Below, one piece after another: positions 6,906-44,263 of a stretch of 64,000 bases of DNA. Source of the DNA: Phytophthora sp. 'mugwort'. Lineage: Eukaryota; Oomycota; Peronosporomycetes; Peronosporales; Peronosporaceae. The DNA lies in contig JAUCEF010000001.1 in assembly GCA_033558025.1 (NCBI GenBank), positions 2,356,001 through 2,420,000 on the forward strand. The letters run 5' to 3'. The position numbers and the translations under genes are program-made. Positions within the stretch are counted from its first letter, which is position 1. Each line of letters opens with the position of its first letter. Below the pieces are notes generated by a model, which made no database searches, was not told where the DNA came from, and saw only the letters and a program-made list of their open reading frames with translations.

Positions 6906-6965
6906 GTAGTCCTCGATCTAACGCCCTTTTTGGTTGCGAGACCAACATGCTTCTTCTCCTCTTTG
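6906..6965 (-). pseudogene. degenerate initiator tRNA-Met copy at the left edge of the array
   Basis: The segment aligns with the array tRNA from the T arm to the 5' side, but with many changes. The T-arm region is cctcgatctaac instead of tctcgatccaac. The anticodon loop reads CTCGCAA rather than CTCATAA on the coding strand, giving CGC in the anticodon position. The 3' acceptor strand is gone and the 5' acceptor no longer pairs. It is directly followed at 6974 by the first full spacer, so it is the oldest or least homogenised unit of the array. Confidence 0.75.
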
Positions 6966-7452
6966 TTCAAACAGTCCACACACCACTGACACACAAACAT
7001 GCGCAAATTCAAACGAATCAGAAACAAGCGTAATCGCACGCGCGCGGTCAGCCCAGCCCGACAATCCGCGCCTCGCACGGCCCTCTGAAATCGCAGATAC
7101 GCCGCTCCGAGCGTCTGCATGCCAATAGGCTTCAAACGCGTGTAGAATATTCAAGGCGCTTGCCACTGCTTCAGGACCGAACCCTGTCGCCACGCGTACC
7201 GCTGGACGCGTTCAACGCTCCAGACCACAAATAGCGCCACGCTGGGACGTCGGTCGATTCCGCGATTTGACGTGGCGGGACTCGATCCAGAGACCTCGAG
7301 GCACCGGTTTGCATGGTCCGTGTGGCCGCCACAAGCGTTCTCTGAGAGCGGAAATACTTCACGACGCGCCGCACGGTCGTGCCAATCAAGCAAACATTGG
7401 CAGAAGCGACAAAAGCAATACTGCGCGCGTAACGGCGTGCGCGGACAAAAGA

Positions 7453-7524
7453 TAGCACTTGTTGGTCTCGATCCAACGACCTTTGGGTTATGAGCCCAAC
7501 ACGCTTCCTCTGCGCCAAAGTGCT
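7453..7524 (-). tRNA. tRNA-iMet(CAU), left-arm copy 8
   Basis: First intact copy from the left. Cloverleaf as described for the copy at 12793-12864. It is followed downstream (lower coordinates) by the spacer that borders the degenerate copy. Confidence 0.96.
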
Positions 7525-8013
7525 AGCTCAAACAATCCACACACCACTCACACACAAACATGCGCAAATTCAAACGAATCAGAAACAAGCGTAATCGCAC
7601 GCGCGCGGTCAGCCCAGCCCGACAATCCGCGCCTCGCACGGCCCTCTGAAATCGCAGATACGCCGCTCCGAGCGTCTGCATGCCAATAGGCTTCAAACGC
7701 GTGTAGAATATTCAAGGCGCTTGCCACTGCTTCAGGACCGAACCCTGTCGCCACGCGTACCGCTGGACGCGTTCAACGCTCCAGACCACAAATAGCGCCA
7801 CGCTGGGACGTCGGTCGATTCCGCGATTTGACGTGGCGGGACTCGATCCAGAGACCTCGAGGCACCGGTTTGCATGGTCCGTGTGGCCGCCACAAGCGTT
7901 CTCTGAGAGCGGAAATACTTCACGACGCGCGGCACGGTCGTGCCAATCAAGCAAACATTGGCAGAAGCGACAAAAGCAATACTGAGCGCGTAACGGCGTG
8001 CGCGGACAAAAGA

Positions 8014-8085
8014 TAGCACTTGTTGGTCTCGATCCAACGACCTTTGGGTTATGAGCCCAACACGCTTCCTCTGCGCCAAAGTGCT
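8014..8085 (-). tRNA. tRNA-iMet(CAU), left-arm copy 7
   Basis: Body unchanged. Its downstream spacer has actgagcgcg in place of actgcgcgcg and the GCGGCACGG marker. Confidence 0.96.
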
Positions 8086-8574
8086 AGCTCAAACAATCCA
8101 CACACCACTCACACACAAACATGCGCAAATTCAAACGAATCAGAAACAAGCGTAATCGCACGCGCGCGGTCAGCCCAGCCCGACAATCCGCGCCTCGCAC
8201 GGCCCTCTGAAATCGCAGATACGCCGCTCCGAGCGTCTGCATGCCAATAGGCTTCAAACGCGTGTAGAATATTCAAGGCGCTTGCCACTGCTTCAGGACC
8301 GAACCCTGTCGCCACGCGTACCGCTGGACGCGTTCAACGCTCCAGACCACAAATAGCGCCACGCTGGGACGTCGGTCGATTCCGCGATTTGACGTGGCGG
8401 GACTCGATCCAGAGACCTCGAGGCACCGGTTTGCATGGTCCGTGTGGCCGCCACAAGCGTTCTCTGAGAGCGGAAATACTTCACGACGCGCCGCACGGTC
8501 GTGCTAATCAAGCAAACATTGGCAGAAGCGACAAAAGCAATACTGCGCGCGTAACGGCGTGCGCGGACAAAAGA

Positions 8575-8646
8575 TAGCACTTGTTGGTCTCGATCCAACG
8601 ACCTTTGGGTTATGAGCCCAACACGCTTCCTCTGCGCCAAAGTGCT
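8575..8646 (-). tRNA. tRNA-iMet(CAU), left-arm copy 6
   Basis: Body unchanged. Its downstream spacer has a single change, gtgctaatc for gtgccaatc. Confidence 0.96.
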
Positions 8647-9135
8647 AGCTCAAACAATCCACACACCACTCACACACAAACATGCGCAAATTCAAACGAA
8701 TCAGAAACAAGCGTAATCGCACGCGCGCGGTCAGCCCAGCCCGACAATCCGCGCCTCGCACGGCCCTCTGAAATCGCAGATACGCCGCTCCGAGCGTCTG
8801 CATGCCAATAGGCTTCAAACGCGTGTAGAATATTCAAGGCGCTTGCCACTGCTTCAGGACCGAACCCTGTCGCCACGCGTACCGCTGGACGCGTTCAACG
8901 CTCCAGACCACAAATAGCGCCACGCTGGGACGTCGGTCGATTCCGCGATTTGACGTGGCGGGACTCGATCCAGAGACCTCGAGGCACCGGTTTGCATGGT
9001 CCGTGTGGCCGCCACAAGCGTTCTCTGAGAGCGGAAATACTTCACGACGCGCCGCACGGTCGTGCCAATCAAGCAAACATTGGCAGAAGCGACAAAAGCA
9101 ATACTGCGCGCGTAACGGCGTGCGCGGACAAAAGA

Positions 9136-9207
9136 TAGCACTTGTTGGTCTCGATCCAACGACCTTTGGGTTATGAGCCCAACACGCTTCCTCTGCGCCA
9201 AAGTGCT
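9136..9207 (-). tRNA. tRNA-iMet(CAU), left-arm copy 5
   Basis: Body unchanged, 561 bp from each neighbour. Confidence 0.96.
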
Positions 9208-9696
9208 AGCTCAAACAATCCACACACCACTCACACACAAACATGCGCAAATTCAAACGAATCAGAAACAAGCGTAATCGCACGCGCGCGGTCAGCCCAG
9301 CCCGACAATCCGCGCCTCGCACGGCCCTCTGAAATCGCAGATACGCCGCTCCGAGCGTCTGCATGCCAATAGGCTTCAAACGCGTGTAGAATATTCAAGG
9401 CGCTTGCCACTGCTTCAGGACCGAACCCTGTCGCCACGCGTACCGCTGGACGCGTTCAACGCTCCAGACCACAAATAGCGCCACGCTGGGACGTCGGTCG
9501 ATTCCGCGATTTGACGTGGCGGGACTCGATCCAGAGACCTCGAGGCACCGGTTTGCATGGTCCGTGTGGCCGCCACAAGCGTTCTCTGAGAGCGGAAATA
9601 CTTCACGACGCGCCGCACGGTCGTGCCAATCAAGCAAACATTGGCAGAAGCGACAAAAGCAATACTGCGCGCGTAACGGCGTGCGCGGACAAAAGA

Positions 9697-9768
9697 TAGC
9701 ACTTGTTGGTCTCGATCCAACGACCTTTGGGTTATGAGCCCAACACGCTTCCTCTGCGCCAAAGTGCT
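9697..9768 (-). tRNA. tRNA-iMet(CAU), left-arm copy 4
   Basis: Body unchanged, 561 bp from each neighbour. Confidence 0.96.
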
Positions 9769-10257
9769 AGCTCAAACAATCCACACACCACTCACACACA
9801 AACATGCGCAAATTCAAACGAATCAGAAACAAGCGTAATCGCACGCGCGCGGTCAGCCCAGCCCGACAATCCGCGCCTCGCACGGCCCTCTGAAATCGCA
9901 GATACGCCGCTCCGAGCGTCTGCATGCCAATAGGCTTCAAACGCGTGTAGAATATTCAAGGCGCTTGCCACTGCTTCAGGACCGAACCCTGTCGCCACGC
10001 GTACCGCTGGACGCGTTCAACGCTCCAGACCACAAATAGCGCCACGCTGGGACGTCGGTCGATTCCGCGATTTGACGTGGCGGGACTCGATCCAGAGACC
10101 TCGAGGCACCGGTTTGCATGGTCCGTGTGGCCGCCACAAGCGTTCTCTGAGAGCGGAAATACTTCACGACGCGCCGCACGGTCGTGCCAATCAAGCAAAC
10201 ATTGGCAGAAGCGACAAAAGCAATACTGCGCGCGTAACGGCGTGCGCGGACAAAAGA

Positions 10258-10329
10258 TAGCACTTGTTGGTCTCGATCCAACGACCTTTGGGTTATGAGC
10301 CCAACACGCTTCCTCTGCGCCAAAGTGCT
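10258..10329 (-). tRNA. tRNA-iMet(CAU), left-arm copy 3
   Basis: Body unchanged. The spacer upstream (10330-10793) is shorter, lacking 24 bp and one T, so the next copy is 536 bp away. Confidence 0.96.
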
Positions 10330-10793
10330 AGCTCAAACAATCCACACACCACTCACACACAAACATGCGCAATTCAAACGAATCAGAAACAAGCGTAATC
10401 GCACGCGCGCGGTCAGCCCAGCCCGACAATCCGCGCCTCGCACGGCCCTCTGAAATCGCAAGCCAATAGGCTTCAAACGCGTGTAGAATATTCAAGGCGC
10501 TTGCCACTGCTTCAGGACCGAACCCTGTCGCCACGCGTACCGCTGGACGCGTTCAACGCTCCAGACCACAAATAGCGCCACGCTGGGACGTCGGTCGATT
10601 CCGCGATTTGACGTGGCGGGACTCGATCCAGAGACCTCGAGGCACCGGTTTGCATGGTCCGTGTGGCCGCCACAAGCGTTCTCTGAGAGCGGAAATACTT
10701 CACGACGCGCGGCACGGTCGTGCCAATCAAGCAAACATTGGCAGAAGCGACAAAAGCAATACTGCGCGCGTAACGGCGTGCGCGGACAAAAGA

Positions 10794-10865
10794 TAGCACT
10801 TGTTGGTCTCGATCCAACGACCTTTGGGTTATGAGCCCAACACGCTTCCTCTGCGCCAAAGTGCT
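10794..10865 (-). tRNA. tRNA-iMet(CAU), left-arm copy 2
   Basis: Body unchanged. Downstream lies the 24-bp-deleted spacer. Confidence 0.96.
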
Positions 10866-11354
10866 AGCTCAAACAATCCACACACCACTCACACACAAAC
10901 ATGCGCAAATTCAAACGAATCAGAAACAAGCGTAATCGCACGCGCGCGGTCAGCCCAGCCCGACAATCCGCGCCTCGCACGGCCCTCTGAAATCGCAGAT
11001 ACGCCGCTCCGAGCGTCTGCATGCCAATAGGCTTCAAACGCGTGTAGAATATTCAAGGCGCTTGCCACTGCTTCAGGACCGAACCCTGTCGCCACGCGTA
11101 CCGCTGGACGCGTTCAACGCTCCAGACCACAAATAGCGCCACGCTGGGACGTCGGTCGATTCCGCGATTTGACGTGGCGGGACTCGATCCAGAGACCTCG
11201 AGGCACCGGTTTGCATGGTCCGTGTGGCCGCCACAAGCGTTCTCTGAGAGCGGAAATACTTCACGACGCGCGGCACGGTCGTGCCAATCAAGCAAACATT
11301 GGCAGAAGCGACAAAAGCAATACTGCGCGCGTAACGGCGTGCGCGGACAAAAGA

Positions 11355-11426
11355 TAGCACTTGTTGGTCTCGATCCAACGACCTTTGGGTTATGAGCCCA
11401 ACACGCTTCCTCTGCGCCAAAGTGCT
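11355..11426 (-). tRNA. tRNA-iMet(CAU), left-arm copy 1, nearest the junction
   Basis: Body unchanged. The upstream flank has caatccgcacacc, a one-base variant also found (as its complement) before the plus-arm copies at 12793 and 15012, so the two arms share ancestry after that change. Confidence 0.96.
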
Positions 11427-11915
11427 AGCTCAAACAATCCGCACACCACTCACACACAAACATGCGCAAATTCAAACGAATCAGAAACAAGCGTAATCGC
11501 ACGCGCGCGGTCAGCCCAGCCCGACAATCCGCGCCTCGCACGGCCCTCTGAAATCGCAGATACGCCGCTCCGAGCGTCTGCATGCCAATAGGCTTCAAAC
11601 GCGTGTAGAATATTCAAGGCGCTTGCCACTGCTTCAGGACCGAACCCTGTCGCCACGCGTACCGCTGGACGCGTTCAACGCTCCAGACCACAAATAGCGC
11701 CACGCTGGGACGTCGGTCGATTCCGCGATTTGACGTGGCGGGACTCGATCCAGAGACCTCGAGGCACCGGTTTGCATGGTCCGTGTGGCCGCCACAAGCG
11801 TTCTCTGAGAGCGGAAATACTTCACGACGCGCGGCACGGTCGTGCCAATCAAGCAAACATTGGCAGAAGCGACAAAAGCAATACTGCGCGCGTAACGGCG
11901 TGCACGGACAAAAGA

Positions 11916-11935
11916 TAGCACTTGTTAGTCTCGAT
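11916..11935 (-). pseudogene. tRNA-iMet fragment cut at the inversion junction
   Basis: The minus-arm copy begins normally at its 3' end (discriminator complement plus agcactt, then gttagtctcgat with one G-to-A change) and stops inside the T loop at 11935. The next base belongs to the spacer of the plus arm, starting gaatcgaccgacg. The 5' three quarters of the tRNA, including A box and anticodon, are missing, so this copy is dead. Confidence 0.9.
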
Positions 11936-12232
11936 GAATCGACCGACGTCCCAGCGTGGCGCTATTTGTGGTCTGGAGCGTTGAACGCGTCCAGCGGTAC
12001 GCGTGGCGACAGGGTTCGGTCCTGAAGCAGTGGCAAGCGCCTTGAATATTCTACACGCGTCTGAAGCCTATTGGCATGCAGACGCTCGGAGCGGCGTATC
12101 TGCGATTTCAGAGGGCCGTGCGAGGCGCGGATTGTCGGGCTGGGCTGACCGCGCGCGTGCGATTACGCTTGTTTCTGATTCGTTTGAATTTGCGCATGTT
12201 TGTGTGTGAGTGGTGTGTGGATTGTTTGAGCT

Positions 12233-12304
12233 AGCACTTTGGCGCAGAGGAAGCGTGTTGGGCTCATAACCCAAAGGTCGTTGGATCGAGACCAACAAGT
12301 GCTA
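12233..12304 (+). tRNA. tRNA-iMet(CAU), right-arm copy 1, nearest the junction
   Basis: First intact plus-strand copy. Body unchanged. Its flanks are slightly divergent: cgtctgaagcc upstream and gtgagtaattccgc downstream, the latter shortening the unit to 560 bp. Confidence 0.96.
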
Positions 12305-12799
12305 TCTTTTGTCCGCGCACGCCGTTACGCGCGCAGTATTGCTTTTGTCGCTTCTGCCAATGTTTGCTTGATTGGCACGACCGTGCCGCGCGTCGTGAGT
12401 AATTCCGCTCTCAGAGAACGCTTGTGGCGGCCACACGGACCATGCAAACCGGTGCCTCGAGGTCTCTGGATCGAGTCCCGCCACGTCAAATCGCGGAATC
12501 GACCGACGTCCCAGCGTGGCGCTATTTGTGGTCTGGAGCGTTGAACGCGTCCAGCGGTACGCGTGGCGACAGGGTTCGGTCCTGAAGCAGTGGCAAGCGC
12601 CTTGAATATTCTACACGCGTTTGAAGCCTATTGGCATGCAGACGCTCGGAGCGGCGTATCTGCGATTTCAGAGGGCCGTGCGAGGCGCGGATTGTCGGGC
12701 TGGGCTGACCGCGCGCGTGCGATTACGCTTGTTTCTGATTCGTTTGAATTTGCGCATGTTTGTGTGTGAGTGGTGTGCGGATTGTTTGAGCTAGCACTT

Positions 12800-12810
12800 T
12801 GGCGCAGAGG
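12800..12810 (+). promoter_or_regulatory. Pol III A box (internal promoter, reference copy)
   Basis: TGGCGCAGAGG at the D arm matches the eukaryotic tRNA A-box pattern (TRGCNNAGNGG) bound by TFIIIC. It is present in every intact copy, 7 nt into the gene. Confidence 0.85.
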
Positions 12811-12842
12811 AAGCGTGTTGGGCTCATAACCCAAAGGTCGTT

Positions 12843-12853
12843 GGATCGAGACC
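12843..12853 (+). promoter_or_regulatory. Pol III B box (internal promoter, reference copy)
   Basis: GGATCGAGACC in the T arm matches the B-box pattern GGTTCGANNCC with the initiator-specific T-to-A change. Spacing to the A box is normal, and it is present in every intact copy. Confidence 0.85.
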
Positions 12854-12866
12854 AACAAGTGCTATC

Positions 12867-12870
12867 TTTT
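12867..12870 (+). terminator. Pol III terminator TTTT (reference copy)
   Basis: A T4 run begins 3 nt after the discriminator base (tcTTTTgtcc), the standard Pol III stop. A second TTTT lies about 35 nt further on (gcTTTTgtcgc) and could act as backup. Both are kept in all units I read. Confidence 0.85.
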
Positions 12871-12984
12871 GTCCGCGCACGCCGTTACGCGCGCAGTATT
12901 GCTTTTGTCGCTTCTGCCAATGTTTGCTTGATTGGCACGACCGTGCCGCGCGTCGTGAAGTATTTCCGCTCTCAGAGAACGCTT

Positions 12985-13045
12985 GTGGCGGCCACACGGA
13001 CCATGCAAACCGGTGCCTCGAGGTCTCTGGATCGAGTCCCGCCAC
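12985..13045 (+). other. tRNA-like relic in the spacer with second B-box-like motif
   Basis: GTGGCGG (12985-12991) and CCGCCAC (13039-13045) form a perfect 7-bp pairing around 47 nt. Just inside the right arm lies GGATCGAGTCC (13029-13039), one more match to a B box, preceded by AGGTC as in the real tRNA. No D arm or anticodon arm can be folded and 61 nt is too short for a tRNA. I read it as an ancient second tRNA reduced to its B box, or a chance match fixed by amplification. It recurs in every unit. Confidence 0.4.
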
Positions 13046-13329
13046 GTCAAATCGCGGAATCGACCGACGTCCCAGCGTGGCGCTATTTGTGGTCTGGAGC
13101 GTTGAACGCGTCCAGCGGTACGCGTGGCGACAGGGTTCGGTCCTGAAGCAGTGGCAAGCGCCTTGAATATTCTACACGCGTTTGAAGCCTATTGGCTTGC
13201 GATTTCAGAGGGCCGTGCGAGGCGCGGATTGTCGGGCTGGGCTGACCGCGCGCGTGCGATTACGCTTGTTTCTGATTCGTTTGAATTTGCGCATGTTTGT
13301 GTGTGAGTGGTGTGTGGATTGTTTGAGCT

Positions 13330-13401
13330 AGCACTTTGGCGCAGAGGAAGCGTGTTGGGCTCATAACCCAAAGGTCGTTGGATCGAGACCAACAAGTGCT
13401 A
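13330..13401 (+). tRNA. tRNA-iMet(CAU), right-arm copy 3
   Basis: Starts 537 bp after the previous copy because the spacer lacks 24 bp (ggcttgcgattt form). The downstream spacer has gagtcacgcc for gagtcccgcc. Confidence 0.96.
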
Positions 13402-13889
13402 TCTTTTGTCCGCGCACGCCGTTACGCGCGCAGTATTGCTTTTGTCGCTTCTGCCAATGTTTGCTTGATTGGCACGACCGTGCCGCGCGTCGTGAAGTAT
13501 TTCCGCTCTCAGAGAACGCTTGTGGCGGCCACACGGACCATGCAAACCGGTGCCTCGAGGTCTCTGGATCGAGTCACGCCACGTCAAATCGCGGAATCGA
13601 CCGACGTCCCAGCGTGGCGCTATTTGTGGTCTGGAGCGTTGAACGCGTCCAGCGGTACGCGTGGCGACAGGGTTCGGTCCTGAAGCAGTGGCAAGCGCCT
13701 TGAATATTCTACACGCGTTTGAAGCCTATTGGCATGCAGACGCTCGGAGCGGCGTATCTGCGATTTCAGAGGGCCGTGCGAGGCGCGGATTGTCGGGCTG
13801 GGCTGACCGCGCGCGTGCGATTACGCTTGTTTCTGATTCGTTTGAATTGCGCATGTTTGTGTGTGAGTGGTGTGTGGATTGTTTGAGCT

Positions 13890-13961
13890 AGCACTTTGGC
13901 GCAGAGGAAGCGTGTTGGGCTCATAACCCAAAGGTCGTTGGATCGAGACCAACAAGTGCTA
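13890..13961 (+). tRNA. tRNA-iMet(CAU), right-arm copy 4
   Basis: Body unchanged. The upstream spacer lacks one T (gaattgcgc), giving 560 bp. Confidence 0.96.
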
Positions 13962-14450
13962 TCTTTTGTCCGCGCACGCCGTTACGCGCGCAGTATTGCT
14001 TTTGTCGCTTCTGCCAATGTTTGCTTGATTGGCACGACCGTGCCGCGCGTCGTGAAGTATTTCCGCTCTCAGAGAACGCTTGTGGCGGCCACACGGACCA
14101 TGCAAACCGGTGCCTCGAGGTCTCTGGATCGAGTCCCGCCACGTCAAATCGCGGAATCGACCGACGTCCCAGCGTGGCGCTATTTGTGGTCTGGAGCGTT
14201 GAACGCGTCCAGCGGTACGCGTGGCGACAGGGTTCGGTCCTGAAGCAGTGGCAAGCGCCTTGAATATTCTACACGCGTTTGAAGCCTATTGGCATGCAGA
14301 CGCTCGGAGCGGCGTATCTGCGATTTCAGAGGGCCGTGCGAGGCGCGGATTGTCGGGCTGGGCTGACCGCGCGCGTGCGATTACGCTTGTTTCTGATTCG
14401 TTTGAATTTGCGCATGTTTGTGTGTGAGTGGTGTGTGGATTGTTTGAGCT

Positions 14451-14522
14451 AGCACTTTGGCGCAGAGGAAGCGTGTTGGGCTCATAACCCAAAGGTCGTT
14501 GGATCGAGACCAACAAGTGCTA
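14451..14522 (+). tRNA. tRNA-iMet(CAU), right-arm copy 5
   Basis: Body unchanged, 561 bp after the previous copy. Confidence 0.96.
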
Positions 14523-15011
14523 TCTTTTGTCCGCGCACGCCGTTACGCGCGCAGTATTGCTTTTGTCGCTTCTGCCAATGTTTGCTTGATTGGCACGACC
14601 GTGCCGCGCGTCGTGAAGTATTTCCGCTCTCAGAGAACGCTTGTGGCGGCCACACGGACCATGCAAACCGGTGCCTCGAGGTCTCTGGATCGAGTCCCGC
14701 CACGTCAAATCGCGGAATCGACCGACGTCCCAGCGTGGCGCTATTTGTGGTCTGGAGCGTTGAACGCGTCCAGCGGTACGCGTGGCGACAGGGTTCGGTC
14801 CTGAAGCAGTGGCAAGCGCCTTGAATATTCTACACGCGTTTGAAGCCTATTGGCATGCAGACGCTCGGAGCGGCGTATCTGCGATTTCAGAGGGCCGTGC
14901 GAGGCGCGGATTGTCGGGCTGGGCTGACCGCGCGCGTGCGATTACGCTTGTTTCTGATTCGTTTGAATTTGCGCATGTTTGTGTGTGAGTGGTGTGCGGA
15001 TTGTTTGAGCT

Positions 15012-15083
15012 AGCACTTTGGCGCAGAGGAAGCGTGTTGGGCTCATAACCCAAAGGTCGTTGGATCGAGACCAACAAGTGCTA
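15012..15083 (+). tRNA. tRNA-iMet(CAU), right-arm copy 6
   Basis: Body unchanged. The upstream flank has the gtgtgcggattg variant shared with the copies at 12793 and 11355. Confidence 0.96.
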
Positions 15084-15548
15084 TCTTTTGTCCGCGCACG
15101 CCGTTACGCGCGCAGTATTGCTTTTGTCGCTTCTGCCAATGTTTGCTTGATTGGCACGACCGTGCCGCGCGTCGTGAAGTATTTCCGCTCTCAGAGAACG
15201 CTTGTGGCGGCCACACGGACCATGCAAACCGGTGCCTCGAGGTCTCTGGATCGAGTCCCGCCACGTCAAATCGCGGAATCGACCGACGTCCCAGCGTGGC
15301 GCTATTTGTGGTCTGGAGCGTTGAACGCGTCCAGCGGTACGCGTGGCGACAGGGTTCGGTCCTGAAGCAGTGGCAAGCGCCTTGAATATTCTACACGCGT
15401 TTGAAGCCTATTGGCTTGCGATTTCAGAGGGCCGTGCGAGGCGCGGATTGTCGGGCTGGGCTGACCGCGCGCGTGCGATTACGCTTGTTTCTGATTCGTT
15501 TGAATTTGCGCATGTTTGTGTGTGAGTGGTGTGTGGATTGTTTGAGCT

Positions 15549-15620
15549 AGCACTTTGGCGCAGAGGAAGCGTGTTGGGCTCATAACCCAAAGGTCGTTGG
15601 ATCGAGACCAACAAGTGCTA
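15549..15620 (+). tRNA. tRNA-iMet(CAU), right-arm copy 7
   Basis: Body unchanged. The upstream spacer carries the 24-bp deletion (537-bp unit). Confidence 0.96.
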
Positions 15621-16085
15621 TCTTTTGTCCGCGCACGCCGTTACGCGCGCAGTATTGCTTTTGTCGCTTCTGCCAATGTTTGCTTGATTGGCACGACCGT
15701 GCCGCGCGTCGTGAAGTATTTCCGCTCTCAGAGAACGCTTGTGGCGGCCACACGGACCATGCAAACCGGTGCCTCGAGGTCTCTGGATCGAGTCCCGCCA
15801 CGTCAAATCGCGGAATCGACCGACGTCCCAGCGTGGCGCTATTTGTGGTCTGGAGCGTTGAACGCGTCCAGCGGTACGCGTGGCGACAGGGTTCGGTCCT
15901 GAAGCAGTGGCAAGCGCCTTGAATATTCTACACGCGTTTGAAGCCTATTGGCTTGCGATTTCAGAGGGCCGTGCGAGGCGCGGATTGTCGGGCTGGGCTG
16001 ACCGCGCGCGTGCGATTACGCTTGTTTCTGATTCGTTTGAATTTGCGCATGTTTGTGTGTGAGTGGTGTGTGGATTGTTTGAGCT

Positions 16086-16157
16086 AGCACTTTGGCGCAG
16101 AGGAAGCGTGTTGGGCTCATAACCCAAAGGTCGTTGGATCGAGACCAACAAGTGCTA
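16086..16157 (+). tRNA. tRNA-iMet(CAU), right-arm copy 8
   Basis: Body unchanged. Second successive 24-bp-deleted spacer upstream (537-bp unit). Confidence 0.96.
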
Positions 16158-16646
16158 TCTTTTGTCCGCGCACGCCGTTACGCGCGCAGTATTGCTTTTG
16201 TCGCTTCTGCCAATGTTTGCTTGATTGGCACGACCGTGCCGCGCGTCGTGAAGTATTTCCGCTCTCAGAGAACGCTTGTGGCGGCCACACGGACCATGCA
16301 AACCGGTGCCTCGAGGTCTCTGGATCGAGTCCCGCCACGTCAAATCGCGGAATCGACCGACGTCCCAGCGTGGCGCTATTTGTGGTCTGGAGCGTTGAAC
16401 GCGTCCAGCGGTACGCGTGGCGACAGGGTTCGGTCCTGAAGCAGTGGCAAGCGCCTTGAATATTCTACACGCGTTTGAAGCCTATTGGCATGCAGACGCT
16501 CGGAGCGGCGTATCTGCGATTTCAGAGGGCCGTGCGAGGCGCGGATTGTCGGGCTGGGCTGACCGCGCGCGTGCGATTACGCTTGTTTCTGATTCGTTTG
16601 AATTTGCGCATGTTTGTGTGTGAGTGGTGTGTGGATTGTTTGAGCT

Positions 16647-16718
16647 AGCACTTTGGCGCAGAGGAAGCGTGTTGGGCTCATAACCCAAAGGTCGTTGGAT
16701 CGAGACCAACAAGTGCTA
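16647..16718 (+). tRNA. tRNA-iMet(CAU), right-arm copy 9
   Basis: Body unchanged. The downstream spacer has the gtccggcgg and ggtctgaag changes, repeated after the copy at 24499. Confidence 0.96.
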
Positions 16719-17206
16719 TCTTTTGTCCGCGCACGCCGTTACGCGCGCAGTATTGCTTTTGTCGCTTCTGCCAATGTTTGCTTGATTGGCACGACCGTGC
16801 CGCGCGTCGTGAAGTATTTCCGCTCTCAGAGAACGCTTGTGGCGGCCACACGGACCATGCAAACCGGTGCCTCGAGGTCTCTGGATCGAGTCCCGCCACG
16901 TCAAATCGCGGAATCGACCGACGTCCCAGCGTGGCGCTATTTGTGGTCTGGAGCGTTGAACGCGTCCGGCGGTACGCGTGGCGACAGGGTTCGGTCTGAA
17001 GCAGTGGCAAGCGCCTTGAATATTCTACACGCGTTTGAAGCCTATTGGCATGCAGACGCTCGGAGCGGCGTATCTGCGATTTCAGAGGGCCGTGCGAGGC
17101 GCGGATTGTCGGGCTGGGCTGACCGCGCGCGTGCGATTACGCTTGTTTCTGATTCGTTTGAATTTGCGCATGTTTGTGTGTGAGTGGTGTGTGGATTGTT
17201 TGAGCT

Positions 17207-34031: not shown

Positions 34032-34103
34032 AGCACTTTGGCGCAGAGGAAGCGTGTTGGGCTCATAACCCAAAGGTCGTTGGATCGAGACCAACAAGTG
34101 CTA
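34032..34103 (+). tRNA. tRNA-iMet(CAU), right-arm copy 40
   Basis: Body unchanged. The downstream spacer has gtgcggcgcg, the form otherwise seen in the left arm and at the right end. Confidence 0.96.
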
Positions 34104-34592
34104 TCTTTTGTCCGCGCACGCCGTTACGCGCGCAGTATTGCTTTTGTCGCTTCTGCCAATGTTTGCTTGATTGGCACGACCGTGCGGCGCGTCGTGAAGT
34201 ATTTCCGCTCTCAGAGAACGCTTGTGGCGGCCACACGGACCATGCAAACCGGTGCCTCGAGGTCTCTGGATCGAGTCCCGCCACGTCAAATCGCGGAATC
34301 GACCGACGTCCCAGCGTGGCGCTATTTGTGGTCTGGAGCGTTGAACGCGTCCAGCGGTACGCGTGGCGACAGGGTTCGGTCCTGAAGCAGTGGCAAGCGC
34401 CTTGAATATTCTACACGCGTTTGAAGCCTATTGGCATGCAGACGCTCGGAGCGGCGTATCTGCGATTTCAGAGGGCCGTGCGAGGCGCGGATTGTCGGGC
34501 TGGGCTGACCGCGCGCGTGCGATTACGCTTGTTTCTGATTCGTTTGAATTTGCGCATGTTTGTGTGTGAGTGGTGTGTGGATTGTTTGAGCT

Positions 34593-34664
34593 AGCACTTT
34601 GGCGCAGAGGAAGCGTGTTGGGCTCATAACCCAAAGGTCGTTGGATCGAGACCAACAAGTGCTA
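34593..34664 (+). tRNA. tRNA-iMet(CAU), right-arm copy 41
   Basis: Body unchanged, standard 561-bp unit. Confidence 0.96.
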
Positions 34665-35153
34665 TCTTTTGTCCGCGCACGCCGTTACGCGCGCAGTATT
34701 GCTTTTGTCGCTTCTGCCAATGTTTGCTTGATTGGCACGACCGTGCCGCGCGTCGTGAAGTATTTCCGCTCTCAGAGAACGCTTGTGGCGGCCACACGGA
34801 CCATGCAAACCGGTGCCTCGAGGTCTCTGGATCGAGTCCCGCCACGTCAAATCGCGGAATCGACCGACGTCCCAGCGTGGCGCTATTTGTGGTCTGGAGC
34901 GTTGAACGCGTCCAGCGGTACGCGTGGCGACAGGGTTCGGTCCTGAAGCAGTGGCAAGCGCCTTGAATATTCTACACGCGTTTGAAGCCTATTGGCATGC
35001 AGACGCTCGGAGCGGCGTATCTGCGATTTCAGAGGGCCGTGCGAGGCGCGGATTGTCGGGCTGGGCTGACCGCGCGCGTGCGATTACGCTTGTTTCTGAT
35101 TCGTTTGAATTTGCGCATGTTTGTGTGTGAGTGGTGTGTGGATTGTTTGAGCT

Positions 35154-35225
35154 AGCACTTTGGCGCAGAGGAAGCGTGTTGGGCTCATAACCCAAAGGTC
35201 GTTGGATCGAGACCAACAAGTGCTA
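35154..35225 (+). tRNA. tRNA-iMet(CAU), right-arm copy 42
   Basis: Body unchanged, standard 561-bp unit. Confidence 0.96.
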
Positions 35226-35714
35226 TCTTTTGTCCGCGCACGCCGTTACGCGCGCAGTATTGCTTTTGTCGCTTCTGCCAATGTTTGCTTGATTGGCACG
35301 ACCGTGCCGCGCGTCGTGAAGTATTTCCGCTCTCAGAGAACGCTTGTGGCGGCCACACGGACCATGCAAACCGGTGCCTCGAGGTCTCTGGATCGAGTCC
35401 CGCCACGTCAAATCGCGGAATCGACCGACGTCCCAGCGTGGCGCTATTTGTGGTCTGGAGCGTTGAACGCGTCCAGCGGTACGCGTGGCGACAGGGTTCG
35501 GTCCTGAAGCAGTGGCAAGCGCCTTGAATATTCTACACGCGTTTGAAGCCTATTGGCATGCAGACGCTCGGAGCGGCGTATCTGCGATTTCAGAGGGCCG
35601 TGCGAGGCGCGGATTGTCGGGCTGGGCTGACCGCGCGCGTGCGATTACGCTTGTTTCTGATTCGTTTGAATTTGCGCATGTTTGTGTGTGAGTGGTGTGT
35701 GGATTGTTTGAGCT

Positions 35715-35786
35715 AGCACTTTGGCGCAGAGGAAGCGTGTTGGGCTCATAACCCAAAGGTCGTTGGATCGAGACCAACAAGTGCTA
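35715..35786 (+). tRNA. tRNA-iMet(CAU), right-arm copy 43
   Basis: Body unchanged, standard 561-bp unit. Confidence 0.96.
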
Positions 35787-36275
35787 TCTTTTGTCCGCGC
35801 ACGCCGTTACGCGCGCAGTATTGCTTTTGTCGCTTCTGCCAATGTTTGCTTGATTGGCACGACCGTGCCGCGCGTCGTGAAGTATTTCCGCTCTCAGAGA
35901 ACGCTTGTGGCGGCCACACGGACCATGCAAACCGGTGCCTCGAGGTCTCTGGATCGAGTCCCGCCACGTCAAATCGCGGAATCGACCGACGTCCCAGCGT
36001 GGCGCTATTTGTGGTCTGGAGCGTTGAACGCGTCCAGCGGTACGCGTGGCGACAGGGTTCGGTCCTGAAGCAGTGGCAAGCGCCTTGAATATTCTACACG
36101 CGTTTGAAGCCTATTGGCATGCAGACGCTCGGAGCGGCGTATCTGCGATTTCAGAGGGCCGTGCGAGGCGCGGATTGTCGGGCTGGGCTGACCGCGCGCG
36201 TGCGATTACGCTTGTTTCTGATTCGTTTGAATTTGCGCATGTTTGTGTGTGAGTGGTGTGTGGATTGTTTGAGCT

Positions 36276-36347
36276 AGCACTTTGGCGCAGAGGAAGCGTG
36301 TTGGGCTCATAACCCAAAGGTCGTTGGATCGAGACCAACAAGTGCTA
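36276..36347 (+). tRNA. tRNA-iMet(CAU), right-arm copy 44
   Basis: Body unchanged, standard 561-bp unit. Confidence 0.96.
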
Positions 36348-36836
36348 TCTTTTGTCCGCGCACGCCGTTACGCGCGCAGTATTGCTTTTGTCGCTTCTGC
36401 CAATGTTTGCTTGATTGGCACGACCGTGCCGCGCGTCGTGAAGTATTTCCGCTCTCAGAGAACGCTTGTGGCGGCCACACGGACCATGCAAACCGGTGCC
36501 TCGAGGTCTCTGGATCGAGTCCCGCCACGTCAAATCGCGGAATCGACCGACGTCCCAGCGTGGCGCTATTTGTGGTCTGGAGCGTTGAACGCGTCCAGCG
36601 GTACGCGTGGCGACAGGGTTCGGTCCTGAAGCAGTGGCAAGCGCCTTGAATATTCTACACGCGTTTGAAGCCTATTGGCATGCAGACGCTCGGAGCGGCG
36701 TATCTGCGATTTCAGAGGGCCGTGCGAGGCGCGGATTGTCGGGCTGGGCTGACCGCGCGCGTGCGATTACGCTTGTTTCTGATTCGTTTGAATTTGCGCA
36801 TGTTTGTGTGTGAGTGGTGTGTGGATTGTTTGAGCT

Positions 36837-36908
36837 AGCACTTTGGCGCAGAGGAAGCGTGTTGGGCTCATAACCCAAAGGTCGTTGGATCGAGACCAAC
36901 AAGTGCTA
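36837..36908 (+). tRNA. tRNA-iMet(CAU), right-arm copy 45
   Basis: Body unchanged, standard 561-bp unit. Confidence 0.96.
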
Positions 36909-37397
36909 TCTTTTGTCCGCGCACGCCGTTACGCGCGCAGTATTGCTTTTGTCGCTTCTGCCAATGTTTGCTTGATTGGCACGACCGTGCCGCGCGTCGT
37001 GAAGTATTTCCGCTCTCAGAGAACGCTTGTGGCGGCCACACGGACCATGCAAACCGGTGCCTCGAGGTCTCTGGATCGAGTCCCGCCACGTCAAATCGCG
37101 GAATCGACCGACGTCCCAGCGTGGCGCTATTTGTGGTCTGGAGCGTTGAACGCGTCCAGCGGTACGCGTGGCGACAGGGTTCGGTCCTGAAGCAGTGGCA
37201 AGCGCCTTGAATATTCTACACGCGTTTGAAGCCTATTGGCATGCAGACGCTCGGAGCGGCGTATCTGCGATTTCAGAGGGCCGTGCGAGGCGCGGATTGT
37301 CGGGCTGGGCTGACCGCGCGCGTGCGATTACGCTTGTTTCTGATTCGTTTGAATTTGCGCATGTTTGTGTGTGAGTGGTGTGTGGATTGTTTGAGCT

Positions 37398-37469
37398 AGC
37401 ACTTTGGCGCAGAGGAAGCGTGTTGGGCTCATAACCCAAAGGTCGTTGGATCGAGACCAACAAGTGCTA
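37398..37469 (+). tRNA. tRNA-iMet(CAU), right-arm copy 46
   Basis: Body unchanged, standard 561-bp unit. Confidence 0.96.
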
Positions 37470-37958
37470 TCTTTTGTCCGCGCACGCCGTTACGCGCGCA
37501 GTATTGCTTTTGTCGCTTCTGCCAATGTTTGCTTGATTGGCACGACCGTGCCGCGCGTCGTGAAGTATTTCCGCTCTCAGAGAACGCTTGTGGCGGCCAC
37601 ACGGACCATGCAAACCGGTGCCTCGAGGTCTCTGGATCGAGTCCCGCCACGTCAAATCGCGGAATCGACCGACGTCCCAGCGTGGCGCTATTTGTGGTCT
37701 GGAGCGTTGAACGCGTCCAGCGGTACGCGTGGCGACAGGGTTCGGTCCTGAAGCAGTGGCAAGCGCCTTGAATATTCTACACGCGTTTGAAGCCTATTGG
37801 CATGCAGACGCTCGGAGCGGCGTATCTGCGATTTCAGAGGGCCGTGCGAGGCGCGGATTGTCGGGCTGGGCTGACCGCGCGCGTGCGATTACGCTTGTTT
37901 CTGATTCGTTTGAATTTGCGCATGTTTGTGTGTGAGTGGTGTGTGGATTGTTTGAGCT

Positions 37959-38030
37959 AGCACTTTGGCGCAGAGGAAGCGTGTTGGGCTCATAACCCAA
38001 AGGTCGTTGGATCGAGACCAACAAGTGCTA
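37959..38030 (+). tRNA. tRNA-iMet(CAU), right-arm copy 47
   Basis: Body unchanged, standard 561-bp unit. Confidence 0.96.
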
Positions 38031-38519
38031 TCTTTTGTCCGCGCACGCCGTTACGCGCGCAGTATTGCTTTTGTCGCTTCTGCCAATGTTTGCTTGATTG
38101 GCACGACCGTGCCGCGCGTCGTGAAGTATTTCCGCTCTCAGAGAACGCTTGTGGCGGCCACACGGACCATGCAAACCGGTGCCTCGAGGTCTCTGGATCG
38201 AGTCCCGCCACGTCAAATCGCGGAATCGACCGACGTCCCAGCGTGGCGCTATTTGTGGTCTGGAGCGTTGAACGCGTCCAGCGGTACGCGTGGCGACAGG
38301 GTTCGGTCCTGAAGCAGTGGCAAGCGCCTTGAATATTCTACACGCGTTTGAAGCCTATTGGCATGCAGACGCTCGGAGCGGCGTATCTGCGATTTCAGAG
38401 GGCCGTGCGAGGCGCGGATTGTCGGGCTGGGCTGACCGCGCGCGTGCGATTACGCTTGTTTCTGATTCGTTTGAATTTGCGCATGTTTGTGTGTGAGTGG
38501 TGTGTGGATTGTTTGAGCT

Positions 38520-38591
38520 AGCACTTTGGCGCAGAGGAAGCGTGTTGGGCTCATAACCCAAAGGTCGTTGGATCGAGACCAACAAGTGCTA
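38520..38591 (+). tRNA. tRNA-iMet(CAU), right-arm copy 48
   Basis: Body unchanged, standard 561-bp unit. Confidence 0.96.
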
Positions 38592-39080
38592 TCTTTTGTC
38601 CGCGCACGCCGTTACGCGCGCAGTATTGCTTTTGTCGCTTCTGCCAATGTTTGCTTGATTGGCACGACCGTGCCGCGCGTCGTGAAGTATTTCCGCTCTC
38701 AGAGAACGCTTGTGGCGGCCACACGGACCATGCAAACCGGTGCCTCGAGGTCTCTGGATCGAGTCCCGCCACGTCAAATCGCGGAATCGACCGACGTCCC
38801 AGCGTGGCGCTATTTGTGGTCTGGAGCGTTGAACGCGTCCAGCGGTACGCGTGGCGACAGGGTTCGGTCCTGAAGCAGTGGCAAGCGCCTTGAATATTCT
38901 ACACGCGTTTGAAGCCTATTGGCATGCAGACGCTCGGAGCGGCGTATCTGCGATTTCAGAGGGCCGTGCGAGGCGCGGATTGTCGGGCTGGGCTGACCGC
39001 GCGCGTGCGATTACGCTTGTTTCTGATTCGTTTGAATTTGCGCATGTTTGTGTGTGAGTGGTGTGTGGATTGTTTGAGCT

Positions 39081-39152
39081 AGCACTTTGGCGCAGAGGAA
39101 GCGTGTTGGGCTCATAACCCAAAGGTCGTTGGATCGAGACCAACAAGTGCTA
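39081..39152 (+). tRNA. tRNA-iMet(CAU), right-arm copy 49
   Basis: Body unchanged, standard 561-bp unit. Confidence 0.96.
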
Positions 39153-39641
39153 TCTTTTGTCCGCGCACGCCGTTACGCGCGCAGTATTGCTTTTGTCGCT
39201 TCTGCCAATGTTTGCTTGATTGGCACGACCGTGCCGCGCGTCGTGAAGTATTTCCGCTCTCAGAGAACGCTTGTGGCGGCCACACGGACCATGCAAACCG
39301 GTGCCTCGAGGTCTCTGGATCGAGTCCCGCCACGTCAAATCGCGGAATCGACCGACGTCCCAGCGTGGCGCTATTTGTGGTCTGGAGCGTTGAACGCGTC
39401 CAGCGGTACGCGTGGCGACAGGGTTCGGTCCTGAAGCAGTGGCAAGCGCCTTGAATATTCTACACGCGTTTGAAGCCTATTGGCATGCAGACGCTCGGAG
39501 CGGCGTATCTGCGATTTCAGAGGGCCGTGCGAGGCGCGGATTGTCGGGCTGGGCTGACCGCGCGCGTGCGATTACGCTTGTTTCTGATTCGTTTGAATTT
39601 GCGCATGTTTGTGTGTGAGTGGTGTGTGGATTGTTTGAGCT

Positions 39642-39713
39642 AGCACTTTGGCGCAGAGGAAGCGTGTTGGGCTCATAACCCAAAGGTCGTTGGATCGAGA
39701 CCAACAAGTGCTA
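39642..39713 (+). tRNA. tRNA-iMet(CAU), right-arm copy 50
   Basis: Body unchanged, standard 561-bp unit. Confidence 0.96.
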
Positions 39714-40202
39714 TCTTTTGTCCGCGCACGCCGTTACGCGCGCAGTATTGCTTTTGTCGCTTCTGCCAATGTTTGCTTGATTGGCACGACCGTGCCGCGC
39801 GTCGTGAAGTATTTCCGCTCTCAGAGAACGCTTGTGGCGGCCACACGGACCATGCAAACCGGTGCCTCGAGGTCTCTGGATCGAGTCCCGCCACGTCAAA
39901 TCGCGGAATCGACCGACGTCCCAGCGTGGCGCTATTTGTGGTCTGGAGCGTTGAACGCGTCCAGCGGTACGCGTGGCGACAGGGTTCGGTCCTGAAGCAG
40001 TGGCAAGCGCCTTGAATATTCTACACGCGTTTGAAGCCTATTGGCATGCAGACGCTCGGAGCGGCGTATCTGCGATTTCAGAGGGCCGTGCGAGGCGCGG
40101 ATTGTCGGGCTGGGCTGACCGCGCGCGTGCGATTACGCTTGTTTCTGATTCGTTTGAATTTGCGCATGTTTGTGTGTGAGTGGTGTGTGGATTGTTTGAG
40201 CT

Positions 40203-40274
40203 AGCACTTTGGCGCAGAGGAAGCGTGTTGGGCTCATAACCCAAAGGTCGTTGGATCGAGACCAACAAGTGCTA
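40203..40274 (+). tRNA. tRNA-iMet(CAU), right-arm copy 51
   Basis: Body unchanged. The downstream flank changes to ttatgcgcgcgtaattgc, the first sign of the distinct right-end subfamily. Confidence 0.96.
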
Positions 40275-40763
40275 TCTTTTGTCCGCGCACGCCGTTATGC
40301 GCGCGTAATTGCTTTTGTCGCTTCTGCCAATGTTTGCTTGATTGGCACGACCGTGCGGCGCGTCGTGAAGTATTTCCGCTCTCAGAGAACGCTTGTGGCG
40401 GCCACACGGACCATGCAAACCGGTGCCTCGAGGTCTCTGGATCGAGTCCCGCCACGTCAAATCGCGGAATCGACCGACGTCCCAGCGTGGCGCTATTTGT
40501 GGTCTGGAGCGTTGAACGCGTCCAGCGGTACGCGTGGCGACAGGGTTCGGTCCTGAAGCAGTGGCAAGCGCCTTGAATATTCTACACGCGTTTGAAGCCT
40601 ATTGGCATGCAGACGCTCGGAGCGGCGTATCTGCGATTTCAGAGGGCCGTGCGAGGCGCGGATTGTCGGGCTGGGCTGACCGCGCGCGTGCGATTACGCT
40701 TGTTTCTGATTCGTTTGAATTTGCGCATGTTTGTGTGTGAGTGGTGTGTGGATTGTTTGAGCT

Positions 40764-40835
40764 AGCACTTTGGCGCAGAGGAAGCGTGTTGGGCTCATAA
40801 CCCAAAGGTCGTTGGATCGAGACCAACAAGTGCTA
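40764..40835 (+). tRNA. tRNA-iMet(CAU), right-arm copy 52 (dimer type A)
   Basis: Body unchanged. The downstream flank is gcgcgtaattgc with gtgcggcgcg. Confidence 0.96.
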
Positions 40836-41324
40836 TCTTTTGTCCGCGCACGCCGTTACGCGCGCGTAATTGCTTTTGTCGCTTCTGCCAATGTTTGCTT
40901 GATTGGCACGACCGTGCGGCGCGTCGTGAAGTATTTCCGCTCTCAGAGAACGCTTGTGGCGGCCACACGGACCATGCAAACCGGTGCCTCGAGGTCTCTG
41001 GATCGAGTCCCGCCACGTCAAATCGCGGAATCGACCGACGTCCCAGCGTGGCGCTATTTGTGGTCTGGAGCGTTGAACGCGTCCAGCGGTACGCGTGGCG
41101 ACAGGGTTCGGTCCTGAAGCAGTGGCAAGCGCCTTGAATATTCTACACGCATTTGAAGCCTATTGGCATGCAGACGCTCGGAGCGGCGTATCTGCGATTT
41201 CAGAGGGCCGTGCGAGGCGCGGATTGTCGGGCTGGGCTGACCGCGCGCGTGCGATTACGCTTGTTTCTGATTCGTTTGAATTTGCGCATGTTTGTGTGTG
41301 AGTGGTGTGTGGATTGTTTGAGCT

Positions 41325-41396
41325 AGCACTTTGGCGCAGAGGAAGCGTGTTGGGCTCATAACCCAAAGGTCGTTGGATCGAGACCAACAAGTGCTA
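41325..41396 (+). tRNA. tRNA-iMet(CAU), right-arm copy 53 (dimer type B)
   Basis: Body unchanged. The downstream flank is gcgcgagtattgc (one base shorter) and the upstream spacer has cacgcatttgaag. Confidence 0.96.
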
Positions 41397-41884
41397 TCTT
41401 TTGTCCGCGCACGCCGTTACGCGCGAGTATTGCTTTTGTCGCTTCTGCCAATGTTTGCTTGATTGGCACGACCGTGCCGCGCGTCGTGAAGTATTTCCGC
41501 TCTCAGAGAACGCTTGTGGCGGCCACACGGACCATGCAAACCGGTGCCTCGAGGTCTCTGGATCGAGTCCCGCCACGTCAAATCGCGGAATCGACCGACG
41601 TCCCAGCGTGGCGCTATTTGTGGTCTGGAGCGTTGAACGCGTCCAGCGGTACGCGTGGCGACAGGGTTCGGTCCTGAAGCAGTGGCAAGCGCCTTGAATA
41701 TTCTACACGCGTTTGAAGCCTATTGGCATGCAGACGCTCGGAGCGGCGTATCTGCGATTTCAGAGGGCCGTGCGAGGCGCGGATTGTCGGGCTGGGCTGA
41801 CCGCGCGCGTGCGATTACGCTTGTTTCTGATTCGTTTGAATTTGCGCATGTTTGTGTGTGAGTGGTGTGTGGATTGTTTGAGCT

Positions 41885-41956
41885 AGCACTTTGGCGCAGA
41901 GGAAGCGTGTTGGGCTCATAACCCAAAGGTCGTTGGATCGAGACCAACAAGTGCTA
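41885..41956 (+). tRNA. tRNA-iMet(CAU), right-arm copy 54 (dimer type A)
   Basis: Body unchanged. Same flanks as the copy at 40764. Confidence 0.96.
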
Positions 41957-42445
41957 TCTTTTGTCCGCGCACGCCGTTACGCGCGCGTAATTGCTTTTGT
42001 CGCTTCTGCCAATGTTTGCTTGATTGGCACGACCGTGCGGCGCGTCGTGAAGTATTTCCGCTCTCAGAGAACGCTTGTGGCGGCCACACGGACCATGCAA
42101 ACCGGTGCCTCGAGGTCTCTGGATCGAGTCCCGCCACGTCAAATCGCGGAATCGACCGACGTCCCAGCGTGGCGCTATTTGTGGTCTGGAGCGTTGAACG
42201 CGTCCAGCGGTACGCGTGGCGACAGGGTTCGGTCCTGAAGCAGTGGCAAGCGCCTTGAATATTCTACACGCATTTGAAGCCTATTGGCATGCAGACGCTC
42301 GGAGCGGCGTATCTGCGATTTCAGAGGGCCGTGCGAGGCGCGGATTGTCGGGCTGGGCTGACCGCGCGCGTGCGATTACGCTTGTTTCTGATTCGTTTGA
42401 ATTTGCGCATGTTTGTGTGTGAGTGGTGTGTGGATTGTTTGAGCT

Positions 42446-42517
42446 AGCACTTTGGCGCAGAGGAAGCGTGTTGGGCTCATAACCCAAAGGTCGTTGGATC
42501 GAGACCAACAAGTGCTA
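42446..42517 (+). tRNA. tRNA-iMet(CAU), right-arm copy 55 (dimer type B)
   Basis: Body unchanged. Same flanks as the copy at 41325. Confidence 0.96.
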
Positions 42518-43005
42518 TCTTTTGTCCGCGCACGCCGTTACGCGCGAGTATTGCTTTTGTCGCTTCTGCCAATGTTTGCTTGATTGGCACGACCGTGCCG
42601 CGCGTCGTGAAGTATTTCCGCTCTCAGAGAACGCTTGTGGCGGCCACACGGACCATGCAAACCGGTGCCTCGAGGTCTCTGGATCGAGTCCCGCCACGTC
42701 AAATCGCGGAATCGACCGACGTCCCAGCGTGGCGCTATTTGTGGTCTGGAGCGTTGAACGCGTCCAGCGGTACGCGTGGCGACAGGGTTCGGTCCTGAAG
42801 CAGTGGCAAGCGCCTTGAATATTCTACACGCGTTTGAAGCCTATTGGCATGCAGACGCTCGGAGCGGCGTATCTGCGATTTCAGAGGGCCGTGCGAGGCG
42901 CGGATTGTCGGGCTGGGCTGACCGCGCGCGTGCGATTACGCTTGTTTCTGATTCGTTTGAATTTGCGCATGTTTGTGTGTGAGTGGTGTGTGGATTGTTT
43001 GAGCT

Positions 43006-43077
43006 AGCACTTTGGCGCAGAGGAAGCGTGTTGGGCTCATAACCCAAAGGTCGTTGGATCGAGACCAACAAGTGCTA
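43006..43077 (+). tRNA. tRNA-iMet(CAU), right-arm copy 56 (dimer type A)
   Basis: Body unchanged. Same flanks as the copy at 40764. Confidence 0.96.
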
Positions 43078-43566
43078 TCTTTTGTCCGCGCACGCCGTTA
43101 CGCGCGCGTAATTGCTTTTGTCGCTTCTGCCAATGTTTGCTTGATTGGCACGACCGTGCGGCGCGTCGTGAAGTATTTCCGCTCTCAGAGAACGCTTGTG
43201 GCGGCCACACGGACCATGCAAACCGGTGCCTCGAGGTCTCTGGATCGAGTCCCGCCACGTCAAATCGCGGAATCGACCGACGTCCCAGCGTGGCGCTATT
43301 TGTGGTCTGGAGCGTTGAACGCGTCCAGCGGTACGCGTGGCGACAGGGTTCGGTCCTGAAGCAGTGGCAAGCGCCTTGAATATTCTACACGCATTTGAAG
43401 CCTATTGGCATGCAGACGCTCGGAGCGGCGTATCTGCGATTTCAGAGGGCCGTGCGAGGCGCGGATTGTCGGGCTGGGCTGACCGCGCGCGTGCGATTAC
43501 GCTTGTTTCTGATTCGTTTGAATTTGCGCATGTTTGTGTGTGAGTGGTGTGTGGATTGTTTGAGCT

Positions 43567-43638
43567 AGCACTTTGGCGCAGAGGAAGCGTGTTGGGCTCA
43601 TAACCCAAAGGTCGTTGGATCGAGACCAACAAGTGCTA
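43567..43638 (+). tRNA. tRNA-iMet(CAU), right-arm copy 57 (dimer type B)
   Basis: Body unchanged. Same flanks as the copy at 41325. Confidence 0.96.
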
Positions 43639-44126
43639 TCTTTTGTCCGCGCACGCCGTTACGCGCGAGTATTGCTTTTGTCGCTTCTGCCAATGTTTGC
43701 TTGATTGGCACGACCGTGCCGCGCGTCGTGAAGTATTTCCGCTCTCAGAGAACGCTTGTGGCGGCCACACGGACCATGCAAACCGGTGCCTCGAGGTCTC
43801 TGGATCGAGTCCCGCCACGTCAAATCGCGGAATCGACCGACGTCCCAGCGTGGCGCTATTTGTGGTCTGGAGCGTTGAACGCGTCCAGCGGTACGCGTGG
43901 CGACAGGGTTCGGTCCTGAAGCAGTGGCAAGCGCCTTGAATATTCTACACGCGTTTGAAGCCTATTGGCATGCAGACGCTCGGAGCGGCGTATCTGCGAT
44001 TTCAGAGGGCCGTGCGAGGCGCGGATTGTCGGGCTGGGCTGACCGCGCGCGTGCGATTACGCTTGTTTCTGATTCGTTTGAATTTGCGCATGTTTGTGTG
44101 TGAGTGGTGTGTGGATTGTTTGAGCT

Positions 44127-44198
44127 AGCACTTTGGCGCAGAGGAAGCGTGTTGGGCTCATAACCCAAAGGTCGTTGGATCGAGACCAACAAGTGCTA
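44127..44198 (+). tRNA. tRNA-iMet(CAU), right-arm copy 58, last of the array
   Basis: Body and TTTT terminator intact. Homology to the unit ends about 65 bp downstream with cccttctgcaatgttggc, where unrelated sequence begins. Confidence 0.96.
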
Positions 44199-44263
44199 TC
44201 TTTTGTCCGCGCACGCCGTTACGCGCGCAGTATTGCTTTTGTCCCTTCTGCAATGTTGGCTTG

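Follow-up and report, generated by a model that had tools for sequence, protein, structure and literature searches.

A tandem array of initiator tRNA-Met genes in a Phytophthora-type oomycete

Introduction

Arrays of tRNA genes are already known in two oomycetes, Phytophthora infestans and Peronospora effusa, and the descriptions of both that follow draw on portions of the respective papers. In P. infestans, monomeric arrays that repeat a single tRNA gene are made up of near-identical units, have their variants grouped, and usually occupy one chromosome (PMC9584435). The array of Cys genes contains 271 copies of a 513-nt unit, tRNA-Met(CAT) genes are arrayed on Chr8 and, separately, on Chr12, and tRNA-Leu(AAG) genes make up another monomeric array. 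These arrays are backed by read depth; copy counts differ by about a quarter between assemblies, and there are unplaced tRNA contigs (PMC9584435). The word "initiator" does not appear in the main text of that paper (PMC9584435).

In P. effusa, approximately 99.6% of more than 6,000 genes annotated as tRNAs lie in 33 to 39 clusters, including an identical 72-bp tRNA carried in a 717-bp unit, with subgroups of repeats and inversions inside the array (PMC11540230). The fast expansion of these repeats, their near-identity, spacers, and inversions, and the differences between isolates led to the proposal that they are SINE-like, while the same authors consider each family to be restricted to one location and probably unable to mobilise (PMC11540230). 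The two papers disagree on this type of array, which one takes for tRNA genes (PMC9584435) and the other for SINE-like elements (PMC11540230). Outside the oomycetes, nearly all tRNA genes of Entamoeba are found in tandem arrays, the units of which hold up to five tRNA genes with short tandem repeats between them (as described in the part of PMC2652664 used here).

The locus considered here is a repeat array of about 37 kb with a unit of about 561 bp. It was studied within a window of 64,000 nucleotides (the whole stretch of DNA analysed, C1:2356001-2420000) and against an assembly of 86,260,535 bases (86.26 Mb) in 154 contigs. As in the available account of P. infestans, it is a single-tRNA array with units of some hundred bases, and both genomes also have a tRNA-Leu(AAG) array; unlike that account, the initiator family has here been identified and searched for genome-wide, and an inverted arm has been found. 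With the P. effusa arrays, as far as those portions describe them, it shares a 72-nt identical tRNA, subgroups of units, an inversion, and confinement to one location, but those arrays were interpreted as SINE-like, whereas the tRNA of this array is essential and has no other source that we found. Tandem tRNA arrays are common to Entamoeba, as partly described, and this genome, although here there is one gene per unit and no short tandem repeats were listed. Initiator tRNA genes of Xenopus also lie within a large tandem repeat, but the Xenopus unit holds several different tRNAs while the unit here holds a single gene. Titles and abstract openings were searched for an oomycete initiator array and none was described there, most subscription journals being outside the coverage of that search. 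What is new relative to the portions of PMC9584435 and PMC11540230 drawn on here is an essential tRNA of unique signature that is found only in an array.

Results

Identity of the array genes

ARAGORN called 66 tRNA-Met(CAT) genes in the window, and the same 66 were recovered with Rfam RF00005 at 61.7 bits apiece against a gathering score of 29; neither program placed another tRNA above threshold in the window. The gene is 72 nt long and has one sequence, identical in 66 of 66 copies. Eukaryotic initiators are defined by an A1-U72 pair, three G-C pairs in the anticodon stem, and a T loop with A54 and A60. The array gene has a CAT anticodon, A1-U72, three G-C pairs adjoining the anticodon loop, and the T loop ATCGAGA, which contains A54 and A60, all verified on the sequence. 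Standard pairing runs throughout the 7, 5, and 5 positions of the acceptor, anticodon stem, and T stem, and a TTTT terminator for RNA polymerase III starts three bases past the gene, at unit column 75. The array gene differs from the elongator Met gene of this genome, which has G-C at 1-72 and the T loop TTCGAGC. Judged by structure, the array genes are initiator-type tRNA-Met, and the RF00005 scores and structural check rule out that they are elongator Met genes or pseudogenes. The first-pass annotation, which had described 66 identical, structurally perfect initiator genes with these same features, was correct on this point.

Layout of the array and its flanks

The array is internal to contig C1 (4,772,530 bases) and does not lie at a contig end. 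It had been annotated as one 37-kb tandem array at 6906..44263, and these coordinates agree with ours within a few bases. The array of 66 stands, with the correction that it has two arms: 8 genes are on the minus strand and 58 on the plus strand, arranged divergently. The left arm (6907..11935, minus strand) has 8 intact units, with genes from 7453-7524 to 11355-11426, and a partial unit at the junction, and the right arm (11936..44262, plus strand) has 58 intact units, with genes from 12233-12304 to 44127-44198. At the divergent junction (11903..11936), a minus-strand unit is broken inside the T arm of its tRNA and joined to the middle of the spacer of a plus-strand unit. The tRNA remnant at this site carries a private substitution that is absent from all 66 intact genes.

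The left edge of the array is marked by a decayed initiator tRNA relic (6912..6962, minus strand), and on the right, similarity fades by eye at about 44262. A Pfam Chromo domain fragment lies about 270 bases past the right edge (E 9.6e-15), and a weak Pol_BBD match, under the Pfam cut-off, lies to the left of the array, so the array appears to be flanked by retroelement remnants. The right flank also contains an open reading frame for a cyclase-associated protein (Pfam CAP_N and CAP_C), whose product is closest to those of Phytophthora capsici and P. palmivora (89% identity), followed by other Phytophthora, downy mildews, and Pythium, which suggests that the organism is a Phytophthora or a near relative.

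The unit and its spacer

An example consensus unit (19451..20011, plus strand) is made up of 561 bp: the 72-nt tRNA gene, TTTT from column 75, and a spacer of about 489 bp. As to a protein encoded by the unit, a reading that was set aside, open reading frames of at least 60 aa that overlap 20000-21500 reach 115 aa at most. No short tandem repeats were listed in the spacer. The spacer of this unit does contain a candidate tRNA relic (19643..19703, plus strand), in which the stem ends are perfect over 7 bp; its B-box-like site, GGATCGAGTCC, is present in 65 spacer copies. A 19-base similarity between the spacer and the T arm of the initiator has a score that was reached by 23 of 2000 shuffles. 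We found no Rfam tRNA match in the spacer at E values up to 5, and a second tRNA gene was rejected on this ground, the T-arm similarity being suggestive only; the feature at 19643..19703 may be a tRNA relic, and its stem ends and B-box-like site are likewise only suggestive. B-box-like sites are in excess in the window (69 observed versus 3.67 expected), but this is not independent evidence because one site is repeated by the array.

Variation between units

The first-pass annotation gave every unit as 561 bp, which holds for 49 of the 64 complete units and fails for 15, these being 560 bp (11 units), 537 bp (3 units), or 536 bp (1 unit). The 64 units fall into 16 haplotypes, with the consensus haplotype accounting for 31, and none of the variable columns lies inside the tRNA gene. 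The variants that mark units include some in the leader (columns 547 and 557) and some in the trailer (columns 96 and 101-105). When the variants are grouped, by our own judgement, into about 17 events, the absence of any from the gene has a p of about 0.10, so that an unvarying tRNA does not on its own speak for selection; a selective reading was set aside as not significant.

Variants are clustered along the array. In the right arm, which has 57 complete units, non-consensus units of the same sequence stand next to each other in 5 pairs (shuffle mean 1.07; reached by 20 of 10000 shuffles) and two apart in 7 pairs (mean 1.08; 0 of 10000 shuffles), both in excess of chance, with a weak signal at 14 apart (3 pairs; 434 of 10000 shuffles). 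At the right end of the array, two unit types alternate three times, forming a two-unit higher-order repeat (40764..44126, plus strand) in which p52, p54, and p56 are identical, as are p53, p55, and p57. A 24-bp deletion is present in units on either side of the inversion. Clustered variants and a higher-order repeat are what unequal exchange and conversion would be expected to leave behind. Consensus units that cannot be told apart follow one another for at most 10 units, or about 5.6 kb.

Initiator genes across the assembly

An exact search for the 72-mer gives 66 places in the 86.26-Mb assembly, all within the array, and zero further copies were found in the whole assembly with up to three mismatches. 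A pattern for the initiator that keeps the variable loop and T loop finds the same 66 places in the assembly, while its reversed control finds 1 and 2. The check for initiator genes outside the array, which the first-pass annotation had proposed, thus returns zero outside and 66 inside. A 44-base piece of the spacer, allowed up to three mismatches, also has 67 of 67 places in the assembly inside the array. Two fragments on contig C17 carry the 3' half of the tRNA only; a whole-unit similarity search, which skipped common words, gave just these fragments, hence the use of pattern searches. The array is the sole source of initiator tRNA found within the assembly, although the assembly may be incomplete.

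Other tRNA arrays in the genome

Four other tRNA families are arrayed likewise in this genome, a number that is not a census. A pattern for elongator Met matches 112 sites, all of them on one strand; those listed, 100 in number, are on contig C18 with a spacing of about 707 bp, and the remaining 12 fit within a fetched stretch in which the last copies lie at about 3421700. In four 10-kb stretches, 34 complete elongator Met units comprise 14 distinct sequences. A B-box pattern matches 124 places (control 1 and 3), and 98 of the 100 listed are on contig C6, spaced by about 735 bp or multiples of it, where a 3-kb piece contains four tRNA-Leu(AAG) genes. The others are a Glu(CTC) array on contig C5, with a spacing of about 560 bp, and a Gly(CCC/TCC) array on contig C1. 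The listings obtained with tRNA patterns are themselves not a census because arrays dominate them. A further B-box pattern has 663 places (reversed control 93), and as the 100 listed appear dispersed, single dispersed tRNA-like sites exist too. Of 9329 first-look candidates in a genome search with RF00005, only 63 were scored, 62 of them equally, and this search therefore amounts to no nuclear tRNA census; ten candidates that were fetched are all in one repeated Asn-Ser-Met-Pro-Met-Gly cluster. A GGTTG-like motif seen by eye upstream of all five array families was rejected, as the best 6-mer and 7-mer were equalled in 29 and 62 of 100 shuffles, respectively. An array of one tRNA had been put forward as unusual, but with four others in the genome, and with most genes annotated as tRNAs lying in arrays of this type in the published oomycete genomes, as described in the portions of PMC9584435 and PMC11540230 used here, it is not special in this organism.

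Discussion

There is a strong case for regarding the array as the nuclear locus of initiator tRNA-Met in a Phytophthora-type oomycete, and as one of several arrays that each hold a single tRNA family. RNA polymerase III would transcribe every unit as a gene of its own, which has its A and B boxes inside it and TTTT as its terminator and is accompanied by about 489 bp of spacer. The job of the array would be the ordinary supply of initiator tRNA, to which many copies may contribute both dosage and redundancy. The burst of initiation capacity and the TFIIIC platform raised in the first-pass annotation would be speculative additions to this role. Unequal exchange, together with conversion from unit to unit, would account for the growth and uniformity of the array, and the eight inverted units could go back to a single rearrangement.

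An assembly artefact is an improbable source of either the copy number or the inverted arm. Near-identical repeats are prone to such error, faulty sequencing could account for some of the single-base deletions by which units differ, and, in the part of the P. infestans paper used here, assemblies give counts about a quarter apart and leave tRNA contigs unplaced (PMC9584435). Against this, the array is internal to its contig, and the two arms join at a specific breakpoint that has a substitution of its own. The length of the longest indistinguishable run bears on how far the assembly can be trusted, and these 10 units (about 5.6 kb) are within the span of long reads. Inversions are also known in P. 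effusa arrays, according to the portion of that paper drawn on here (PMC11540230).

The first-pass annotation had allowed that the array might be a selfish satellite that captured a tRNA. That the units are satellite or SINE-like elements with a tRNA-derived promoter, whose tRNA copies do not serve translation, is very improbable: near-identical, expanding repeats with inversions were read as SINE-like in P. effusa (PMC11540230, in part) and the initiator array has an inverted arm too, but all 66 copies of the gene are structurally perfect, the assembly would be left with zero initiator tRNA genes since none was found elsewhere, and the P. effusa authors themselves place each family at one site and consider it probably not mobile. 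The genome-wide dispersal of a SINE is not seen, as the spacer piece (67 of 67 places) and the tRNA (66 of 66 places) are in the array; what is found is a single location with many units, near-identical and of one tRNA each. Because gene and spacer piece are confined in this way and no other initiator gene was found, the array is very probably a working initiator-tRNA locus, and not a satellite or SINE with a captured tRNA, as judged from these searches of the assembly.

The initiator offers a clean test of the two published readings because its identity is unmistakable and it is essential to the cell. The finding of its copies in the array alone is an argument that arrays of this type consist, in part at least, of working tRNA genes, and the sole-source result argues against the SINE-like label (PMC11540230) for the initiator array. 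Masking such arrays as transposable elements would strip essential genes from the annotation. The marked units also make this a simple locus for asking which of a set of identical tRNA genes are used and how their uniformity is kept. More speculatively, and on balance doubtfully, the organism may rely on one rDNA-like, recombining locus for all of its initiator tRNA, with unequal exchange shifting initiation capacity between isolates. If this is true, initiator dosage would be a heritable, fast-changing trait.

Surroundings of the array and other tRNA genes

A short way to the right of the array lies a degenerate tRNA-like sequence (window 44950-45006, minus strand), which at 24.7 bits does not reach Rfam's gathering score of 29. 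Farther into the right flank is a perfect 19-bp tandem repeat of 5.4 copies (window 47534-47635), followed by open reading frames carrying WD40, cyclic-nucleotide-binding, and CAP domains (window 49788-57102). Elsewhere in the assembly, an Asn-Ser-Met-Pro-Met-Gly tRNA cluster is common to all 10 of the loci examined (L033 to L042), which lie on contigs that include C15 and C19, and many of the short contigs may be mitochondrial copies. A lone dispersed tRNA with a CAT anticodon, possibly of organellar origin, is found between AT-rich flanks on contig C14 (2391004-2391075, minus strand; locus L077).

Initiator tRNA as a possible primer of reverse transcription

A search of the whole assembly with a 16-mer complementary to the 3' end of the initiator tRNA plus CCA returned 48 places on many contigs, 24 per strand, where the reversed control gave 1 and 0, as would be expected if the initiator tRNA primes LTR retroelements. 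At three places, on contigs C1 (2440617-2446809), C4, and C5, an initiator primer site is flanked by B-box sequences at matching distances, as if an LTR carried a tRNA-like promoter element. Contig C17 (1826294-1826381; loci L001 and L002) holds two tandem copies of the initiator tRNA's 3' half, which start within the anticodon, carry a CCA end, and sit at the centre of an inverted repeat. Judged by eye, this pair looks like the reverse-transcribed product of some element for which half of an initiator tRNA served as primer.
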